DNA of 64,000 nucleotides from Siniperca chuatsi (Eukaryota > Chordata > Actinopteri > Centrarchiformes > Sinipercidae), in the NCBI RefSeq assembly GCF_020085105.1, contig NC_058042.1, forward strand, positions 28,105,501-28,169,500, written 5' to 3'. This document shows, in pieces, positions 22,803 through 64,000 of the stretch. Made by a program: the position numbers and the translations under genes. Within the stretch, counting starts at the first letter, position 1. Each line of letters opens with the position of its first letter. The notes below the pieces were generated by a model, which saw only the letters and a program-made list of their open reading frames with translations, had not been told where the DNA came from and did not search any database.

Positions 22803-23552
22803 TCAGTACAATATCCGTGCTAGAGGAAGAAAGAGGAGCGTCATGCAGCTGGACAATCTCTGGGAAGAAGAGGAAGGATCAGTATACACATCCTCTCTGT
22901 CACTTTTAGGGTCATAGTCTTCATCCTCATACATGTCATCCACATCAGGCTGGTCTGAAATAATGTGGTCTCCTATGGAGCAAAGTTTGCTCATGTTCTC
23001 CTTGACCACTTCACAGAAAGGCCTCTCCACCCCATCGCAAACACAGCGGTTCAGCAGCATGCCATTTGGGATGAACAGCATCTGTTGAATGGTGGCTTTA
23101 CACTTGGAGGAGCACTTCCTGCCGTTGAACAGCTGCCCGCAGTATGACAAGTAGGCCGTGAGGGAGGTGTGGCAGTTGCTGTCTTCCTCGCAGCGCTGCC
23201 GGGCCTCCATGCACCCTATACCCCCGGCATCGGTCGGGTGTCTGCGGGGGAGACACGGCTCTATGGCTCGCTTGGCGCTGAGGCACTCCAGGTCCTGGGC
23301 GCAGTCGCAGGTCTCCAGGTCTGGCCCGCTGCGGGTGTGATTCAGCCTTATCAGCGCGTTGATGCAGTGGCTCGGACACTGCCTCCTCGTTCCTCTGATG
23401 TTACCTTCACAAGCTGCTAAGTATTGACTGTATGCAAGATCGCACTCGGGCTCGTCGTGGCACCGAAGGAGCGCCTGCCAGCAGATTAGCTGGGCATCTA
23501 AGGCCACCAGCACCCATGGGAGAAGTGCCAGGGCGCTGCACCAACATTTCAT
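22803..23552 (-). CDS. Growth arrest-specific protein 1-like, GPI-anchored Hedgehog co-receptor family
   Basis: Single-exon gene, 249 residues from the chosen ATG. GAS1 proteins are GPI-anchored surface proteins with two GFR-alpha-like cysteine domains that bind Hedgehog ligand and assist Patched. Visible here: signal peptide at residues 1-20 (MKCWCSALALLPWVLVALDA), then domain 1 from LICWQALLRC to AIEPCLPR (about 22-103, ten cysteines) and domain 2 from GCMEARQRC to KLCSIG (about 113-194, ten cysteines). Sequons are NHT at 71 and NMS at 186. An acidic segment (DQPDVDDMYEDEDYDP) precedes a serine cluster and a short hydrophobic tail, as expected of a GPI signal. Phrases such as CPSHCINALIRLNHTR and CDCAQ match human GAS1 closely. 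An upstream in-frame ATG at 23600 would put 16 polar residues before the signal peptide, so I prefer 23552. It is shorter than human GAS1 (345) and lacks its low-complexity insertions. Which paralogue (gas1a, gas1b or a third) cannot be told here. Confidence 0.92.
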   Translation of the reverse strand: MKCWCSALALLPWVLVALDAQLICWQALLRCHDEPECDLAYSQYLAACEGNIRGTRRQCPSHCINALIRLNHTRSGPDLETCDCAQDLECLSAKRAIEPCLPRRHPTDAGGIGCMEARQRCEEDSNCHTSLTAYLSYCGQLFNGRKCSSKCKATIQQMLFIPNGMLLNRCVCDGVERPFCEVVKENMSKLCSIGDHIISDQPDVDDMYEDEDYDPKSDREDVYTDPSSSSQRLSSCMTLLFLPLARILY

Positions 23553-25100
23553 GCTTGGATGGAGTTCTAGTTCGGTGTCGTGCACTTTCTCCACCAGCAC
23601 ATTAGGATCAGGTCAATTTACACATTGGATCTCACAGACTGAAGTTCATAGATAATTCCATACATGCGTTTTGCAAACAACGCAGTCAGAAAAAAAAAGT
23701 ATAAATAAAGTATCCACACACTTGCACGAAAGTTAAATTTGCCTTCTCCCGGTGAGCTTTGCCACAGTGGAATACAGGATCCAATCTGAGTCAGGGAAAT
23801 CACCACGCGTGGCTGCAAAAAAAGAGGAACAGCGCAGTAACAGTCATTCCGGGAAGCGTGGCCGTTCAAAAGTGGGACAACATACTCCAAAGTGCAGCCT
23901 GTGTCTGCTCCACGCCGCCGGTGCAGATCTGAGGCGGACACTGAAACGCGCCGCAGGGCTATCCGAAGTTAACGCGCACTCTAACCACAGTTATTGTCCA
24001 CAACTCAGTTTGTACACTTGAACTCATCTTTCTTGCCATTGTTGGTTTCGACTCCTCTGTCCAGCTCTTCCAATTTTAACACACATCCATTCCGATGTTG
24101 TTGTTGTTGTTTGTTTTGTTTGTTTTTTTTTTTTAGGTGGAAGAGGTTTCTATCTGTCGCATTCTGTCCCGCTATGTGCGTCTTTGTCCCTCTTCTTGCT
24201 GTTACGCTTCACGGTCCGCCGAACATTTCCCCACAACACCCCTCCTTCTGTCGAAAAAAAGAAAGAAAAGTTTTTCTCCCCCCCCCCCTCTCCCTCTCCC
24301 TCTCTCCCTCTCTCCCTCTCTCATTTACAATCCTGGCCACCGATTGGTCGTCATAGAAGAGTGAGCCGTGGGACCCATTTCCAGGCCTACAGCAGCACAG
24401 CTCTGCGCACAAATCCTCTCAGTACACGACGAGATAGGCTGGATGAAAATGTTTATGATTTGCCTTGCATCAAACCCAGGATCTGTGTGGTCCCCTCTTC
24501 GCTTGTAGCAAAACACAAATGAAATGGGGGGGGGGCAAAACGCATTCCTTTGCAAGAACTCACATCTGCAACTTAATAGACATAAACGAAGCAAGAGGAA
24601 ACCTCTGCGATAACTGCCCCGTCGTTTAGGATTTCCCCCCTCTCCCCGTCCTGCCTCTCATTCTGCAGAGTTTTTAAGCCCGGATTGATTGAGAGAATGG
24701 GAAAGAATAGTATTTTCTGGCCCGTTTCACCCCAATTGTGTCAGATTGGCCATGCAGTGGCCCAGTGTCTTTCCAGGCTGCATATTGTCCACGCACTGCG
24801 GCCTATCAATAGAGAGGGGTTTCAGCATCAATATATTTTACAGCTATCCCCTTTCACACCACACTTGAAAACTACCAATAGCCCAGACTTTTCTGCCATT
24901 GAAATGGTAACTAACTTGATTTCCCCCCCGCGCAAAGCAGCTTCAGGTCTGGCCCCCAGAGGCTGTGCCAGTTTTGCACAAGCTCCACAAAACCAGATGC
25001 ATGCCCGACCTGAGACCTGTTCAAGACTACAATATGACAGATAGCTGCTGGTAAAAAAAAAACAGTTCAGTATCTAAAACATGCATAGAGTTAGCATTAG
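23553..25100. other. Upstream region of the gas1-like gene; no other gene seen
   Basis: Contains the presumed 5' UTR and promoter of the minus-strand gas1-like gene. An AT-rich TATTTATA-like box read on the minus strand lies at about 23700, some 150 bp from the ATG. A pyrimidine tract with CCCTCT repeats lies at 24278-24321. No convincing exon. Confidence 0.4.
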
Positions 25101-35200: not shown

Positions 35201-36233
35201 TAATAGCCATGCATGGTTGCACACAAACCTGACATGTTATTTTCCCTTTCTGCATAAACATCTGTTTAGACTTCAGAAGTGGGTTTTTTTTTTAAATCTG
35301 CTATTAGTCAAAATCTCATTGGTGAAAAATAAGTCAAAAAACAATACAGAAGTTGATGATGACGAAAAATGCAGATTGTGCCGAAAGCAACAAAAGGTTA
35401 CAGAAGCATGACATATTGTGGTTGTTGTGAGGCAGGAGTGATCACGGTGTGAGTCAACATAACCGAAAGCATCACGCCGGCTCCCGCTCAGTCACACTGC
35501 CAGCCCGGTTACACTTGATCTTCTAGGATTAGGATCCTGTGTGGGATTGGGAGAGATGGGCTTATGTACACCATCACACACGCTCGCTGATCCTCAGCAG
35601 CCGAGCGTTACACCTTTGTTTCTTTAGACATGGGATGACAAGGAATTAGACTCATCAAACAAATGTACCCTGCAGCAAACAATATGCTCATTCAGGGAGT
35701 TTTTAAATTCACATAGGCGGAGATGACGCCATTAGCAAGTCACTGGGATGCCTGTCTTAAGTAGAGCAGTGTGTGAGTGGCACCCCCCTCGTGAGATGAC
35801 AAAATATCCCGCTAATCCCATTAGAAGTGAAAAGTGCTCTGTGTACTCAGTGATAAAACTAGTTTTTGTATCAAAAAAGCATCTGAGACCATTTGGATTG
35901 GCTAATGATTTGCTGAGATTTATTTCTACCTGCGTCAGGTCCTGACCGGAGATCGAACAGACAGGTGGGGTCACAGCAGCATGGCACCGTATGGTGGCAA
36001 GCGAGGTCACCCCAGCAGAGGTGGTTTGATGCCCCGCAGGCTGTCTAGGAGGTGCTGAACTACGCCGCATGTCAGCATGGCAACTGTCCCCCTTAGCTAA
36101 CATCAACTGCTTCCTCATGAGCTGAATATTATTGCCCTGCAACAGAGCAAAAGAAGAGCATTTCAACTTTTGAACTTGATATTTAAAGCTGCATTAAATT
36201 GGGTTTGAAACTTGGTTTGTGTAAATGTTGCCC
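32248..36233. other. Upstream of cplx3 and intergenic; no gene seen
   Basis: The first several hundred bases are relatively GC-rich and probably hold the cplx3 5' UTR and promoter. Open frames on both strands at 32297-32960 are overlapping and unlike known proteins. A (GT)n tract lies at 33421-33451 and a (CT)n tract at 33467-33481. The rest is AT-rich without a recognisable exon. Confidence 0.45.
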
Positions 36234-36890
36234 TTAAAGGATTGGTTCACTCAAATAAAAATAAAAAAACATACTGAAATAATTACATCTAAAGAATTCA
36301 CTGCAACGTGTCTTCCCAGAATCCCTGTTAGTCTGGATAATCCACACAACACACTGCCAACTGCTTTCTCTGGGACTATTTCTTCGGTAGAAAGTAGTTG
36401 TTAAAGTGTTCACAGTGAGCTCTGTGGATTATCCAGAGTAATGGGTACACTGTTTCTGGAAAGAGATGTTGCTGTTCAGTCATTTAAAAAAAAACAAGAA
36501 ATCTCAGAGACGGATATTTTAAAACCCGGGCAAACAAAGCCGGCATATCTATATTTATCTTAGTTATATCCGTCCATATCTGAATGTATAGATACCACAT
36601 ATCACAAGGGGTAAGTGACAAGATTTATTTTTTATTTCTTTGTATTTTCATGCCTTTTGTTTTTTCTCACAAACAGCTTCTTATATTAATACTGTATTTT
36701 TACTGGAGCATGTCCTCAGCAGATAAAATCTAACTAACTCCCTTTCCCCGCTCATTCCAGTAAACTTTGATGAGAAACAGTCTATTCATCCATTTCAGTG
36801 TTTAGACATTTTTTTTATTATTCCTCAACAATCTGGTGTCAATGAACAAGTTACCAATACGAAAAGTATTGTGGGTGAGTTAACCTTTAA
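36234..36890. mobile_element. Non-autonomous TIR element flanked by TTAA
   Basis: Left end TTAAAGGATTGGTTCACTCA and right end, reverse-complemented, TTAAAGGTTAACTCACCCAC form an imperfect inverted repeat, with TTAA at both outer edges. TTAA target duplications are the hallmark of piggyBac-type insertion, but the ends do not start with the usual CCC, so class is tentative. The 657-bp interior has no transposase. Its centre contains two facing copies of a motif (GGATAATCCAC; ACTGTTTCTGGAAAGA). Related sequence recurs at 43020-43130 and 43600-43752. Confidence 0.65.
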
Positions 36891-41345: not shown

Positions 41346-42568
41346 AATTTCCCCATCTCCCCACATTCGCAGCCATGCCAGCAACATGCATCCTTTTGTC
41401 CTTGTTACATAACTCCCCTCCCCACCAGCATAATGAGAACGTTATGATAAAAGTTATGACCCCTAAGTCTGTAACACGCTCCTCACTCCTGTTTCTCCTG
41501 CAAACACCCACACAGATATATACTCACACACATACATGCAGGCTTTGCTGTCACTGAAACGATGATGTTTCCCAGCACAGAGTCACATGCAGTTGAGTCA
41601 CAGCAGAGCTCGGTAGTGTTTTTACATTCAAATAAACACAGTCTAGGTGTGTTTACACTACGAGCACCAACTCCCACAGTCTGACCTCAGAAAACCTGCT
41701 CTCAGGCCTGTCTTTACCCTGGAGAAAAGGGCAGAAAAGAGAGGGTCTGCCTCAGGAATGAGAGCGATTTTCTGCATTTTTGAGACCCTTATGGCAAAGT
41801 GTGCCGGCTGCAGCCTCTGCAGCCCAGTCTGCCACACTGACCCAGCGCCCGCCAAAATATCCTCACTGACATATGTTTGTTTGCCTTTGCGTGCAGCCTC
41901 TCTGTCTGTCCATTCACTGGAAATTCATGAGTGCTGATGTTTACACAGTCCCAGCGGACACAACCGATCTGAGAACAGCTGAACCGCTGCAAACATGAGG
42001 TATTGTGGAGTCGGGACAGATCGGACTGGGGGTATTCTTATATGCTCTTATGTGCTATAAATAGGTGTCTGACATTTGTTTACACTCATGTAAATGGCGC
42101 TCTATGAGCTTATTAATAGCAAAATGTGTGTTTTAACTCTAACTAGTTATAGTCTGAAGCATGTACACTTTCATACTCATGTCACTGACAGGCAAGACTT
42201 TATGGGAAAAAAGCAGATTAAACACCCGTCTCCACCCTCTCAAACTGATGATTTCTATATTTGATCTAAAACATGTGTATTTCGTATGCAAAATGTTTGA
42301 CAAGTCTTGTCTCTACTGTCAACAGACACTAAAATGTCAACATCCTGACATATGCTGTAACTAAGAGTATCCTCTCCCCTCCTCCCCCCCCTCTCTTGGT
42401 GTACCTCTCTCAGAAAACCACACACAGCTGACTTCCTCACAGAGCTGCGGCTCGGGACAAACTCCTCTAAGCTCGCCATCCCTGATGACCTCATCTGATC
42501 TCAGCCCTCACACATCACTGCCTCTGAATCCCAGTTATCCTTAGAGGTCTCATATCTGTAAACACCAA

Positions 42569-42611
<43 letters not shown>

Positions 42612-42635
42612 GATTTAGTGAGAGGCTGTGTTGTT
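41345..42635. other. Intergenic; (CA)n near the end, no gene seen
   Basis: No recognisable exon. A (CA)n tract at 42577-42609 lies about 25 bp outside the left arm of the large inverted repeat. Confidence 0.45.
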
Positions 42636-43168
42636 CCCCATGTGAGGAGAGAATATGAGTCGGTGTGTGTCTGTGTGCACGTGCAGTGGGGTGGGTGGAG
42701 GTGGGGCTAATCGCCCTCATCCTGTCACTTCCTCTGTTCCTCTGTCTGCTCAGATAAACAGATAAACAACAGACTACAGACACAGAACAGGTTATAGACT
42801 GACTGATCAATGGGCTTCTTCTTCAACCCGCACTGATGGCCTCAGAAAGTCTTTGCTTTTCCAAAAAGGACATTTGCTAGATGCGTCAAAACACAAGACG
42901 TACAAGGAACAGAAGAGCTTTTATTTGCACTGAGATCTGACTCTGAGATTTCTGCCACTACATCATAACAATGAACATGAATAGGATTTCAATTGTTGTG
43001 CTCAAAGCATCAACAAAATAGCAATTAGAAAAATCCACAGTAACAAATCTTTCCAGAAACAGTGTCAGGGTTATTCTGAATAATCCACAGACCTCAAGGA
43101 CTATTTTTCAGTAGAAAGTAGTTTTGTGCAAGGCTGGATTACCAATTGGGCAAAGCGAGCAACTGTCC
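42636..43168 (+). repeat. Left arm of a 533-bp inverted duplication
   Basis: This segment is the reverse complement of 46413-46945. Paired positions sum to 89581 at both ends, so there is no net length difference, and every stretch I compared by eye matched base for base. The arm is noncoding. It includes a piece related to the 36.2-kb TTAA element (about 43020-43130) and the first part of a second repeat starting near 43131 (GCAAGGCTGGATTACCAATT), which continues beyond the arm on this side only. Confidence 0.95.
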
Positions 43169-44758
43169 TGGGAACTCTCAGGGGCCCTGAAGGCCCCAGG
43201 TTGTCAGCGTAACAATTACTTTGTGCAAATTTGTTTGGAAATATGCACCACTAAAGCATAACAAAGCAAAACTGAAATGATACGGGCCTTCTGCAGTTTT
43301 ACATAATCTTGAGGCCCTGTCTTGTAGTGGAAGATGTGTCAAGATCTAGTTTAAAAGCTTTAATAAAATGAATTAAATCAAACTTTTTAGTTGATATCAC
43401 GCTATATGGTTCATTTAGTTACACAAATGAGTATTTAAAAAGCAAACCTGGGGCAGGTAGTATGTAAGCGTAGAAATACTGTTTGGTTTCTGGGCAAAAT
43501 GGGAAATGCGTGTATTTGGGGCTTAATATGGCTTAAATGAGATGTTGCATTTGAATTTCTAAATATAGTTTCAATGCTGTGAACCCCACAAAGTAAAATA
43601 AATTCACCTCCATTGTATTGGTGTGGAGGCAGAAATGTCAGCGACGATATCTTAAAACCTGGACAAATAAAACCAAAATTATCTGCACAAAGATAGGTAC
43701 TACTAATTAAGAAAGTGTGTTTTTCTGTAATTTGGGTGAACTGACCCTTTAAAATGTTGGCTACAGAAAAACAAAACATGATAACACTGAACTCCCCTCT
43801 CCTCTAACATTCGAGCCAGGTTTCTCCAGTCCAGCACAAGGAGTAGTTACATAAGATCCTGTGTATTGGTAAATGTCTCTGCCCAACCTCACGTGGCCCC
43901 TACCAAACCCAAACAACATGAGGCCAGCTCTGATGAAACCCACTGAAAACGGCTCATATGCTCTACTGAATCAAACCCTCACCCCAAAGGCAAACTCATC
44001 ATCTTCATCCCTGCTGGAGCACTTACGTCCCTTCCTCTTCTCCCTCTTCCCCAATGTCAAACCTTTGCTCACCGAATTCAATTAACTCTGGCTCAATCAG
44101 AGCGTCTCTTCGCGCGTCACGGCTGAAGGTGAAGGTAAGGTGAGCTCCCAAAGGAGGCCATTGACGTCTGAGAAGTCCGGGCCGAATGCTGGAGCCATCA
44201 AATTTCCGGAGGCTGGACAGGATGTGGGATTTATGTGACAGGCTGCCTGAAAACGTTAGCATTCCTGGGCGTCATGGACCTCGCCAAGGCGATGGCCTCC
44301 TTGCCACGTGACATAGACGGCTGCACATAGGCTGTGGAGACGTTTCCCTCCCAGCCAGGAGAGAGTGTCCATCACGGCTTGTCCCCCCTAACCATGCAAC
44401 CTGTGACAGTCCAACACTACACACCTGGCTGACATATCACAGGAAACACAGCAGTTATATAAACATCAGAACAAGACAAAACACTTTACTTACGTTTAGC
44501 TGCACAAATAATCAAGAAGAGCATGATATAAACTATACCAGTGAATCAAAAACCTTCACTCAAAAAGAGAGAAAAACAAGAAAACACATATCAAGATGGA
44601 GTATGGTACAAGAGAACATGGAGAAACAGGAAATATTGTTCTTTTTACTCCACTACATTTATTTGACAGATATAGTTAGTAGTTACTTTACAGATAAAGA
44701 TTTTTTACATTAAAAACTATGTAAGCTTAAAAAAAACAGCACATTCTTAAGATTAAAC
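43169..44758. other. Spacer of the inverted duplication, left part; no gene seen
   Basis: Begins with the continuation of a repeat that starts inside the left arm. At 43600-43752 lies sequence related to the 36.2-kb element, ending TTTGGGTGAACTGACCCTTT then AA, i.e. the same TIR type with TTAA at 43749-43752. The frames at 43761-44262 on both strands are short and unrecognised. Confidence 0.5.
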
Positions 44759-45097
44759 CGCTGACTCCCAACCATTTGGCTTGTGACCCCTTACAATAAA
44801 ACAGTGTCTGGTTGGGGGGCCCCTTGCCGTGTTTACGATGTGTTGTTAGCACGTCCACCAGAGAGATATTTCCCCTCTAAACTTCTCACATGGTTTAATT
44901 TCAATAACTGTTAAATGATGAATTTTACCAAAGAGATACAATTATCCAATATTTTACACAAAAAAAGCAAAGATTAGAGAAAAGTCCCACCAAAATGAAG
45001 AAAGATTTGTGTCACAGAACTTAGATATTTCCCTAGACCCCTAAGCTTTATCTTGTGACCCTTTGGAGGTTTCCAACCCCTAGGTTGGAAACCACTG
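44759..45097. mobile_element. hAT-like non-autonomous element (MITE)
   Basis: Left end CGCTGACTCCCAACCATTTGG-like; right end reverse-complemented is CAGTGGTTTCCAACCTAGG. These are diverged copies of the CAGTGGTTCCCAACC terminus of a fish hAT-type element. The 8-bp flanks GATTAAAC (44751-44758) and GACAAAAC (45098-45105) match at 6 of 8 bases, consistent with an aged hAT target duplication. No transposase. Confidence 0.75.
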
Positions 45098-45105
45098 GAC
45101 AAAAC

Positions 45106-46412
45106 TACCAGCATTTGTACTGCACCTAAAGTAGCACCACCTCAACCAGCTACAAGAGTAAAATGCTTCTTACACATTGATGCATCAGTATTAAAAAAGG
45201 AATAATGTATAATAATATGGCAGTGACAGGGGCCATTTTCCTGCAGAACATGTACTTTTGATACTTTAAGTATATTTAGCTGATAATGCTTCTCTACTTT
45301 TACGTAAGTAGAATTTAGAATGCAGGACTTTTAATTGTAATGGAGTATCTCTGTATTGATACTTTTATTTATGTAATGAGCATTTCTTTCACCACTGAAT
45401 AATATGAACAATTTCAGACACACATTGTTTACTCATTTACTCATAATTCATTCACATTTCTTCACAATCATTACACCCATTCATTGCATGGCCGTGGATT
45501 CTACAGTTTGTTCGTTCAGAGAATTTGATATGGCCTCTTCCTATATCAGTGGAGTGTTCAAGTGGACCAGACTGCGGGTTAACATTTTTAAGCTTCAGTT
45601 AATTCAAAATAATCAAATGTTTTGTTGTACCTGCACCTTTTTTACTGTCATATTTTTATGTTTAATATACAAATGTATGTTTTTTTGTGTGCTTCAGGGG
45701 AAAAAATAGACATAGAAGCCTGTGTGCAACAGAGCTGCTATATGTAATGTGATTGACAGCAGCACTTTCACACTCTCTTGTCACACGTTATCTGAAATGA
45801 TAGATGTTCTGTCTCTTTCTCTTTCGTGACGTTTTTCTCTCAAGTCTTCCTCAGGTCTAAAGCTGAACATTCGACCCATCTCCTGTCATCCTCCTACAGG
45901 ATACAAATTGTTCTTATTTCAAAAGGCACGAAGTACAGCACAGTAAACTAATAACCTGCAATAGTTTTATATGAATAAATAAATATAAATATCTATTTTG
46001 TCTAGTGATGTACCATGAAAGTGATTCAACTTGTAGCCAGTGGATATAAACTTTTCCATTTGTAACAAATGTACAAGGTAAATGTTCAGTTCGACACCGA
46101 AGAGGACATGATGTGTTTTAAGATAAGTATATTGCAATAAAAGCAACCATTTATTTGAAATGAATAGAAAAAAAAGATGAACTCGTAGCTTATAGCACCC
46201 ATGAAGTCCTATAAAGTCTCTGAAAACATACATTTGACTGGTAGGCTGCTGGTTTAAAACCCTAGGCTTGCTGGAAAAACCTGGACAGGGAACATAAATG
46301 ACAAACATTTTAAATCCTTCATTCTGAGGTGCTCCTGAGCAAGAATACAACTCCAGAGTGCTCCAGTGGTGCTGTTAATTGGCCAAGGAGATTTGAACTG
46401 GTTGAACTGGGT
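45106..46412. other. Spacer of the inverted duplication, right part; SINE-like fragment
   Basis: No gene seen. At about 46215-46375 a stretch with GGTGCTCCTGAGCAAGAATA followed by CAGTGGTGCTGTTAATTGGC resembles the 'cctgagcaaggcaccgaacccccaactgctccc...gcgctgtt' repeat of teleosts. Confidence 0.4.
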
Positions 46413-46945
46413 GGACAGTTGCTCGCTTTGCCCAATTGGTAATCCAGCCTTGCACAAAACTACTTTCTACTGAAAAATAGTCCTTGAGGTCTGTGGATTA
46501 TTCAGAATAACCCTGACACTGTTTCTGGAAAGATTTGTTACTGTGGATTTTTCTAATTGCTATTTTGTTGATGCTTTGAGCACAACAATTGAAATCCTAT
46601 TCATGTTCATTGTTATGATGTAGTGGCAGAAATCTCAGAGTCAGATCTCAGTGCAAATAAAAGCTCTTCTGTTCCTTGTACGTCTTGTGTTTTGACGCAT
46701 CTAGCAAATGTCCTTTTTGGAAAAGCAAAGACTTTCTGAGGCCATCAGTGCGGGTTGAAGAAGAAGCCCATTGATCAGTCAGTCTATAACCTGTTCTGTG
46801 TCTGTAGTCTGTTGTTTATCTGTTTATCTGAGCAGACAGAGGAACAGAGGAAGTGACAGGATGAGGGCGATTAGCCCCACCTCCACCCACCCCACTGCAC
46901 GTGCACACAGACACACACCGACTCATATTCTCTCCTCACATGGGG
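46413..46945 (-). repeat. Right arm of a 533-bp inverted duplication
   Basis: Reverse complement of 42636-43168 with no difference noticed. At its inner edge (46413) only the first 38 or so bases of the GCAAGGCTGGATTACCAATT repeat are present, whereas the left arm runs on into the rest of that repeat. The left copy is therefore the likely source and this the inverted duplicate. Confidence 0.95.
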
Positions 46946-47499
46946 TGGTGAACTCAGTGGATGTGGATGAATCTGGATCAATATGTGGTTCCCAGCAAGA
47001 ACATTCACCAATAAAATGGATCAAGGTCAGAGGTAAATGGTGCTGTACATTTGTGGGGATTTAGATTATACTCTCACTCAGACTGACTCACTATGAATGC
47101 AGGTAAAGTGCGTCACCTTGAAATTTCTCCAAGGGCCAATCAGGAGCCCTTTGTGTGCCACAAACGTCTTACATCTTCCCCCAAGTTTTCACTGTGGCCA
47201 CAGCTAATGCTTCCATCTCTTCTAGCCAGTGCAGAGTTAAAATTAACATTCTTTGGAGCCACGTGAGTCACGCATGACGTCGCTGCCCACGTCTGTGTGT
47301 GGGGGCTGATGAGTAATCCAGCTTGGACTGAGGCAGGAGGCGAGCCTTTGAAGCCAAGTCTCTGCGGAGTGGGGAAATATTAAAGCACAGACGGGCTAAA
47401 CACACCGCTAATGCAAATCTAATGCTAGTGAAGGCACAGACAAGTGAGTTAGTCACCTTGATCAAAATTTCTGTATGACTGTATGATGTAGATTTGATG
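46946..47499. other. Intergenic; nothing recognised
   Basis: No coding or repeat feature identified other than possible 3' sequence of the LINE that follows on the minus strand. Confidence 0.35.
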
Positions 47500-49394
47500 C
47501 CATTCAGGGTTTCACACCTCAATGAAATAATATAATAATAGGATAGCAGTTGATTAATACAGCCAGCTGAGCAGCAATAAACTCTTGACTCACTTGACCA
47601 AAATGTCACCATTATGGCAGGAATAATCCGCAGCAGAGCGGCAAACAAAAACATTTTAAGCCCTGATATAAAACTGAGAGTTGGAGCAGATCTCAAGTTT
47701 TCTGGGAGTTTGTTCCAGACATGTGGAACATAAAAACTGAATGCTACTTCTCCATGTTTAGTTTTGACTCTGGGGACAGTAAGCAGATCTGTCCCAGATG
47801 ATCTGAGAGGTCTGGACAGTTCATAACAGAGCAGCAGATCAGAAATGTATTTTGGCCATAAACCATTCAGTGCTTTATAAACCAACACTAGAATTTTAAA
47901 TTCTTTGACAAATAGGAAGCCAGTGTAAAGATCTGAGCTGACTTTGTAATTGTCTTAATGTGGATGTTAAAATGTAGGTCTGAGTCGATAACTACACCAA
48001 GATTTGTGGCTTGGTTTGTGGTTTTTAACATTAACGATTGGAGGTGAGCACTGACTTTTAACTGTTCTCCTTTTGGTCTACAGACAATTATTTCTGTTTT
48101 ATCTTTGTTTAACTAGAGAAAATATTGGCACATCCAATCATTGATTTCTTGAATGCACTTACTCAGTGCTTGTATGGGAACATAGTCACCTGGTGATATC
48201 GTTATATAAATCTCTGTGTTGTCTGCATAATTATGTTAAGGTATTGTGTTGTTTTCCATCATTTGAGCCAGTGGTAGCATGATGGTAGATGTTGAACACA
48301 AGAGGCTCGAGAATGGAGCCTTGGGGAAGTCCACATCATTTTTGTATGCTTGGATGTGTAATTACAGATCGACACAAAGTAGTCCCTGTCCTTCAAATAG
48401 GATTCAAACCAGTTTAGCACTATGCCAGAAAGTCCAACTCAATTTTCCATTCTGTCTAGTAATATGTTTTGGTAGACAGTGTTGAATACAGCACTGAGAT
48501 CTAACAATACCAAGAGTGAAACTGTCCCATTGACTGTGTTAACTGTGGTGCGGTCGAAATCCTGACTGGAAAACATCAAAGTATTTTTTAGGGCCAGAAG
48601 TGTGTTAAGCTGTTGAAAAACTGCTTTTTAAATGAGTTTACTTGAAACTAGGAGGTTTGATATGGGCCTGTAACCGTTCAACTGTGAGTTGTCTAGATTG
48701 TTCTATTTAAGAGTGGCTTAATAACTGCAGTTTTCAGGGCCTGGGGGAAACAGCCTGAGAGTACAGATGTGTTGACTATTTGCAGACGATCTGATGCCAT
48801 GTAGTTAAAATTACAGACCCTATACCTGATAAGGAGGAACTGACAGCTTGTCTAATTTTCTGAATTTTATCAGTAAAGAATGAGGCAAATTAACTTCATG
48901 ATTTACTGGATAAAAGTTCAGGGGCTACTGACACAGGAGGGTTTGTCAGCCTGTCAACAGTAGCAAATAAGGCACATGCATTATTATTGTTTTTGGCAAT
49001 GTCAGAGAAGGACAGCCTTGCATTTCTGAGTTCAAAATTATGAATGCAGTCTCTCTCCAGATCTGTTTGGGTGGAGGCCATCTGCCCTGAAAAGATGCTT
49101 GCGTCCCGAGAACACATTGAAGTTATGAATATAGCTGATCCCTTCCAAACCACAGGTTTTGCTGAGCCACGTGTTGAGTCCTAAGAGTCTGCTGAACCTG
49201 TTGATCTCTTTGTTGACTGTTGACAGTGGTCCACTAATAAAAAACTGGGCTTCCAGTTTGTCCAGACAATTAAACAGTTTAATGAAATCCTGCTTTACTT
49301 CTGATTGCTCTCTGCAAACATCATTGGCCCCCACATATTTATTATTTATCAGCTGAGGAACTTTCATGTTATGGGTAGCAGAGGGGCAGTTCAA
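47500..49394 (-). mobile_element. L2/CR1-group LINE remnant with esterase and reverse-transcriptase pieces
   Basis: Read on the minus strand from 49394 down: an SGNH-esterase-like segment (ISGPLSTVNKE, FSRLLGLNTWL, HNFNVFSGRKHLFRADGLHP) at about 49250-49030. Then reverse-transcriptase blocks follow: NGYRPISNL near 48680, LLVLLDLSAVFNTVYQNILL near 48500-48440, LNWFESYLKDRDYF near 48400, LNKDKTEIIVCRPKGEQLK near 48110-48050 and NLGVVIDSDLHFN near 47990. The C-terminal end, LVYKALNGLWPKYISDLLL then HVWNKLPENLRSAPTL, lies at 47888-47670. Order and strand fit one element. An esterase domain upstream of the reverse transcriptase is characteristic of CR1/L2-type LINEs. Multiple stops and frameshifts and a missing YADD block show it is dead. 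Frames are my own translations and boundaries are approximate. Confidence 0.8.
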
Positions 49395-54250: not shown

Positions 54251-54479
54251 GAGCTGCTAGCATGGCTGGAGAGTGCTAGTCTTGTTACAATATACAGTAG
54301 GCTATATGGTATCATCACGAGTACGGGAGCCTGTGTTGCTACACAAGGAAAGCCGGGATCCTCGTTCGGTGTAAAAAAAAACAAAAAAAAAACATTCTAA
54401 CAGTCAGCCAAAGCTAATATGAGGCTTCAGCAGTCTGAGTTAGACAAATCAAGTGGGTATGTTCCCAAGTTACAGTCTT

Positions 54480-55615: not shown

Positions 55616-56105
55616 TTTAAAGGAATAGTTCGACATTTTGGGCAAAACACTTATTTGTTACTTCTTCTGATAGTTTGATGAGAAGATGGATACCACTCTC
55701 ACGTCTGTAGGGTAAATATGATGCTACCGCCAGCAGCCAGTTAGCTTAGATTAACATAAAGGCTGGAAACAGGAGGAAACAGCTAAAGATAACAAAATCT
55801 GCTTACCAGCACCTAAATGAACATGTCATATCTCTATATCTATGGATTAAACAAACTAGATGCAGTATAATGTGTTAGTGAGCTTTAGAGGTGCTGCTAG
55901 GTGGATTTTGTTACCTTGAACAGAGCCAGGCTAGCTGTTTCCCCGTTTCCAGTCTTTAAGCTAAGCTAAGCTAAGCTAAGACAACAGCCTGCTAGCATAT
56001 TCATATTTATCATTTCATATTTACCGCACAAATATCCATCGTCTCATCTAACTATGCAAAGAAAGCGAATAAGCGTATTTCCCAAAATGTCAAACTATTC
56101 ATTTA
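55616..56105. mobile_element. Non-autonomous TIR element, abundant fish type
   Basis: Left end TTTAAAGGAATAGTTCGACA then TTTTGGG; the right end reverse-complemented reads CTAAATGAATAGTTTGACAT then TTTGGG. The inverted repeat is about 27 bp around a 490-bp noncoding interior. The interior holds a short (AGCTA)n tandem at about 55957-55980 and GGAAACAGCTAGCCTGGCTC on the complementary strand, a signature I recognise from percomorph genomes. Confidence 0.8.
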
Positions 56106-58944: not shown

Positions 58945-59628
58945 TTAAAGGATAGATTCAGGTTCTTTTTGTCTTAATACAATACTCGCATGCTCATATG
59001 TACACGGAATGAGTCCTTGGTCACTGTAATCATTCCTCCTGTTCATACTGTTCATAATCCCTTAGCAGCATGACTCCACTCTCAGAGATGGGGGACAAAT
59101 CTACAGTCCATGTTTTGTGCAAAACTGTATTCAAAATTTCAAAAGTTGTTTGTACAAAATTCCTTCTTTGTGTTACTATCCCCTTGTCCCAGCTCAGCAA
59201 GGAAACACTGTCTGTGGAAACAAAAATATGCAAATTTGTACTAAAAAGACTAAGTTTGGAAGACAACCACTTGATTTGTCTAAATCCTGAAATCTCACAT
59301 CGGCTGTGGTTGAGCTTTAAAATGCATTTTTAAAAAGAACGAGGATTCTCTCTCCATCTCTTCCAATGGTGTCATGTTATTAGGGAATCTCTTCATGGCC
59401 AGTATGAACAGGAGTAATGATTACAGTGGCCAAAAATGTTTCAATGTACATTTGGGCATGTGAATATTGTTTTATGGTAAATGTACTGCACTTGTATAGC
59501 GCCTTTCTAGTCTTCTGACTACTCAAAGCGCTACACACACACTACATATCACATTCACCCCATTCACACACTGATGGCTAACTGCTCATCAATCATCAGA
59601 CTTGAAAAAATGTGAACCTATCCTTTAG
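58945..59628. mobile_element. TIR element with long inverted arms, interrupted by a nested repeat
   Basis: Left end TTAAAGGATAGATTCAGGTT; right end reverse-complemented TCTAAAGGATAGGTTCACAT. Inverted similarity continues inward: CAGTATGAACAGGAGTAATG at 59400 mirrors the GTAATCATTCCTCCTGTTCATACTG region at 59025-59050. The right arm is split by a foreign segment at about 59475-59600. No transposase. Confidence 0.7.
59475..59600 (+). repeat. Nested dispersed repeat
   Basis: The segment GTAAATGTACTGCACTTGTA then TAGCGCCTTTCTAGTCTTCT and CAAAGCGCTACAC...ATTCACCC...TTCACACACTGATGG is a well-known teleost repeat. It sits inside the right arm of the 58945-59628 element, so it inserted later. Confidence 0.7.

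Positions 59629-61421: not shown

Positions 61422-64000
<2,579 letters not shown>

Follow-up and report, generated by a model that had tools for sequence, protein, structure and literature searches.

Introduction

For MMBIR, junctions with 2–5 bp of microhomology are described in PMC2621351, which also reports inverted duplications and proposes that a second inverted switch in a series would restore a viable chromosome. In the yeast rad27, RPA-related, and dna2 mutants of PMC11724301, complex inserts are joined to the break ends with a median microhomology of 2 bp (range 0–4). Short-range template switches have been described in great apes (PMC7954356), and class 2 templated insertion polymorphisms in people are reported with microdeletion, microhomology, and added nucleotides (PMC5110952).

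The locus analysed here, an inverted pair of 533-bp arms in DNA of Siniperca chuatsi, resembles the MMBIR/FoSTeS templated insertions presented in PMC2621351 and PMC8421209 in that a nearby template would have been copied in inverted orientation, with a few base pairs of junction microhomology. However, the survey in PMC8421209 looked for templates lying at most 100 bp from the insertion, whereas here 533 bp would have come from 3.2 kb away, and both junctions are simple in comparison with MMBIR/FoSTeS. With the class 2 polymorphisms, as they are characterised in PMC5110952, the locus has in common that a double-strand break is presumed to have been patched from a template, that poly(A) is absent, and that microhomology is possible. 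The templates of that class are distant and its authors favour a reverse-transcribed RNA patch, while here the template would be local and a 6-bp direct repeat is present. Duplication-dependent strand annealing, a model of local segmental duplication for which PMC3276153 cites Fiston-Lavier et al. 2007 as the primary paper, is similar in using another site as the repair template and in leaving an exact young copy. According to the account in PMC3276153, however, it requires a repeat common to source and target, and at the four ends of this locus no such repeat is clear.

An exact inverted pair of arms

The window, i.e., the whole stretch of DNA analysed (64,000 nucleotides), contains the following three adjoining features.

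42636..43168, + strand: left arm, putative source copy (533 bp, 43% GC)
43169..46412, no strand: spacer (3244 bp, noncoding as far as tested)
46413..46945, − strand: right arm, putative inserted inverted copy (100% identical to the left arm)

It was found that the two arms are identical as reverse complements at 533 of 533 positions and that their coordinates sum to 89581. Thus, the mismatch-free inverted duplication claimed in a first-pass annotation of this DNA is exact over its full length. The same inverted pair, with its 3244-bp spacer, was recovered independently by a repeat finder; the longest exact inverted match to be expected by chance in 64 kb is about 16 bp, if independent bases are assumed. 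The further claim that all other repeats of the window are diverged also held: when repeat pairs were listed by BLAST within the window (E ≤ 1e-5), the other pairs were 66–85% identical, simple tandem repeats excepted. At the same threshold, the window has no further copy of an arm except a 60-bp, 82% match that belongs to an older repeat, and laxer searches for arm copies add stretches of 19–27 bp. Protein-coding arms were considered and found no support, as the longest open stretch in an arm is 62 codons from stop to stop and the Pfam scans gave none either. The searches for RNA families at the gathering score and for tRNAs both returned 0.

The window has 42% GC, contains AC microsatellites, and has no N letters. 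An ORF at 22803–23600 (− strand) matches Pfam GDNF (E 1.4e-9) and chain G of PDB 7rhq (E 1.5e-62). Counted from the first ATG, this frame of gas1 (growth arrest-specific 1) runs over 22803–23552 (− strand) and carries the GDNF/GAS1 domain. The gas1 start is about 19 kb from the left arm, and the arms lie upstream of gas1. About 40 kb from gas1, the ORF at 63204–63617 (− strand) encodes a tyrosine-kinase stretch that is closest to CSK (3d7u, E 1.3e-34). It is a probable exon of a CSK-like tyrosine kinase, whose further exons would fall at lower coordinates. The arms lie, as far as tested, in noncoding DNA, which may be intergenic or belong to an intron (e.g., of the kinase gene).

Elsewhere in the window, 55618–56105 is a 488-bp imperfect self-palindrome (66% across 528 aligned columns) and probably represents a further old foldback repeat. 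Diverged inverted repeat pairs of about 73–74% identity were also seen at 58975–59091/59354–59474 and at 54386–54493/59232–59331. An ORF at 49038–49394 (− strand) has weak, below-cut-off Pfam matches to a GDSL lipase and to a reverse-transcriptase thumb, perhaps by chance or as a retroelement remnant.

An older repeat across the inner edge of the left arm

Two diverged copies of a repeat family bear on the question of which arm is the source.

42919..43778, no strand: M1, a diverged MITE-like foldback repeat that reaches from the left arm across its inner edge into the spacer (limits approximate, from alignments)
36212..36551, no strand: M2, a second diverged copy of the M1 family that matches both M1 halves (limits approximate)

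The M1 halves at 42919–43053, in the arm, and at 43536–43672, in the spacer, align in inverted orientation with a score of 73, as compared with a maximum of 44 in 100 shuffles. Since M1 is longer in the middle than M2, foreign sequence has perhaps been inserted into it after about 43130. M2 aligns with M1 in four stretches with scores of 76, 72, 56, and 48, the maxima in 60 shuffles each being 39, 34, 42, and 39; the last stretch is weak. M2 was also compared with the left context (the arm and the adjoining spacer) and with the right context, at equal length and in equal orientation. Four matches fall within the arm and are identical in both contexts, as must be the case. In the spacer adjoining the left arm, M2 has two more matches, of 82% over 45 bp (E 1.3e-7) and 76% over 38 bp (E 0.035), while no match at E ≤ 0.1 was found adjoining the right arm. 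Scans for patterns of the old repeats gave 0 stretches in viral contigs and 0 in genome contigs (collections of viruses, bacteria, and archaea, which are little informative here), and 42500–43300 had no match in phage records.

Because the foldback repeat runs on through 43168 but stops at 46413, the left arm appears to be the older arrangement, which supports it as the source. The first-pass annotation had also chosen the left copy as the source, from a neighbouring repeat (from about 43131) said to be intact beside the left copy and cut off after about 38 bp at the right one. Within the window, the pattern at the start of that stretch occurs in the two arms and nowhere else, and the stretch is unconfirmed as a repeat. 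Such a picture, with a repeat intact at the left arm and truncated at the right one, does exist, but it is provided by the different and older M1. The choice of the left arm depends on the spacer having kept its orientation since the copying. A right-hand source followed by inversion of the spacer would give the same picture at the 43168 junction, and the one observation opposing it is the 6-bp direct repeat GGGTGG at the right arm.

Junctions and a probable templated insertion

The two members of this direct repeat straddle the ends of the right arm.

46409..46414, + strand: GGGTGG, left member of the direct repeat (last 2 bp in the right arm)
46943..46948, + strand: GGGTGG, right member of the direct repeat (first 3 bp in the right arm)

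With the right arm taken as the insert, the direct repeat around it is 6 bp (GGGTGG); with the left arm taken as the insert, it is 3 bp. Under the same rule, 290 of 20,000 random 533-bp intervals of the window (1.45%) have a direct repeat of at least 6 bp, a control drawn irrespective of G content for a motif that is short and G-rich. If the target was a single GGGTGG, the junction microhomology is 2 and 3 bp, and it is 0 if the junctions are read as blunt at the arm ends. With its 6 bp, GGGTGG would be long enough for the target-site duplication of LINE-mediated class 1 insertions, which has at least 5 bp, but 5 of the 12 letters of the two members fall inside the arm. The insert ends are GGACAG and CATGGGG and the flanks are CTGGGT and TGGTGA; the poly(A) tract and the TTTT/A target that distinguish LINE-mediated class 1 insertions are both absent.

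The pair probably arose in a single recent event, a local templated insertion in inverted orientation (an inverted dispersed duplication), in which the left arm served as the source and the right arm is the insert. A break or a stalled or broken fork (or a double-strand break) may have occurred at about 46410. Repair would then have used the opposite strand, at a distance of about 3.2 kb, as the template for 533 bp, with entry at 43168 and exit at 42636, and the copied strand would have rejoined the original site with 2–3 bp of junction microhomology and the 6-bp target overlap GGGTGG. In the simplest history, the ancestral site would have had a single GGGTGG, the template being entered after GG and the return taking place at GGG. 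A blunt insertion without homology would fit as well. MMBIR/template switching, SDSA with end joining, and displaced-strand capture are candidate repair routes; I infer both the route and the direction of copying. An insert of the MMBIR type is copied from sequence present elsewhere, and this applies to 533 of the 533 nucleotides here.

Identity of 100% is also the expected outcome of an assembly artefact, by which misjoined or chimeric sequence would have brought in the left arm a second time, at 46413. Such an origin is unlikely, as the window is free of N and the insert is flanked on both sides by other sequence, with a small direct repeat. Moreover, fold-back read chimeras usually yield palindromes without a long unique spacer, which I count against an artefact.

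Flanks and age

Beyond all four ends, the similarity of the arms drops abruptly to about the chance level. By ungapped matching, the outer flanks agree at 18/50, 54/200, and 104/400 positions and the inner flanks at 13/50, 49/200, and 101/400. For flanks of 50, 200, and 400 bp, the local alignment scores were reached in 24, 7, and 28 of 200 shuffles for the outer flanks and in 115, 5, and 23 of 200 shuffles for the inner flanks. Both of the 200-bp values are slightly above chance. I read them as no extension of the arms, since the 50- and 400-bp flanks fail to bear out the excess. A longer diverged duplication around the arms, which was also considered, found no support in this flank comparison.

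With 0 differences in 533 bp, the 95% upper bound of the divergence between the arms is 0.56%. At general vertebrate mutation rates, this corresponds to no more than several hundred thousand generations, provided that no conversion acted. Of the origins that the first-pass annotation had offered for the identity, a very young age is thus supported by the 533/533 match. Another was an older inverted duplication held identical by gene conversion between the arms. Conversion is plausible for inverted repeats 3 kb apart and would preserve the identity of the arms, but it is a very unlikely explanation here: no clear diverged margins exist beyond the identical stretch (the 200-bp flanks being only slightly above the shuffles), and the old repeat is cut by the inner edge of the right arm. 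Although conversion is possible, the loss of clear similarity at all four ends favours a single short event over a longer and older duplication with a patch of conversion.

The spacer and models that include it

The window has 33 ORFs of at least 100 aa, and the Pfam scan covered 20 of them, including all 3 in the spacer. These three, which run from a start codon (43435–43779, 45404–45709, and 45967–46350), gave nothing in Pfam at E ≤ 0.1. A fourth frame of the spacer (44312–44713), which lacks a start codon, has one Pfam match far below the cut-off (E 0.06). No recombinase was found in the scanned spacer frames.

Identical inverted arms of such length on either side of a 3-kb core recall foldback/TIR transposons, and arms and spacer together might form a single mobile element with the arms as its long terminal inverted repeats. 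This is also very unlikely. With 42636–46945 treated as a single element, a possible target-site duplication outside the arms is limited to the 1 bp that the two outer flanks have in common. An older repeat occupies part of the left arm and reaches into the spacer, and the old-repeat match of 60 bp is the nearest to a further arm copy that the window has at E ≤ 1e-5. The 4 scanned spacer frames lack a Pfam match above the cut-off, although non-autonomous elements need none. A composite transposon was considered as well and found no support in the comparison of flanks and target sites.

The geometry would also permit an invertible segment, in which recombination between the arms reverses the spacer, either in a regulatory role or as a polymorphic inversion, but with no recombinase in the scanned spacer frames and with the element crossing 43168 collinear as assembled, this is scarcely credible. 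It is equally hard to credit that, about 19 kb upstream of gas1, the arms are kept up actively as an inversion pair, with conversion homogenising them and the 3.2-kb spacer flipping between them; if true, any regulatory DNA that the spacer contains would occur in two orientations. The first-pass annotation had suggested that the arms could drive inversion of the spacer or form a cruciform. Neither found support. The element across 43168 is collinear, which with a left-arm source indicates that the spacer would not be inverted, and a loop of 3.2 kb makes a cruciform unlikely.

Discussion

The pair at 42636–46945 is real in the sequence as given and appears well explained by an event of a known kind, a local templated insertion from the left arm. 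The inserted copy is probably neutral, and I propose no function for it. Such an inverted insertion is an ordinary kind of mutation, and the picture of how genomes work is unchanged by it. If real, the locus would be a clean and young vertebrate case of templated insertion, local and inverted, in which source and target can be distinguished from the sequence alone. The insertion may serve as a marker of template-switching repair, and its arms could seed later inversions.
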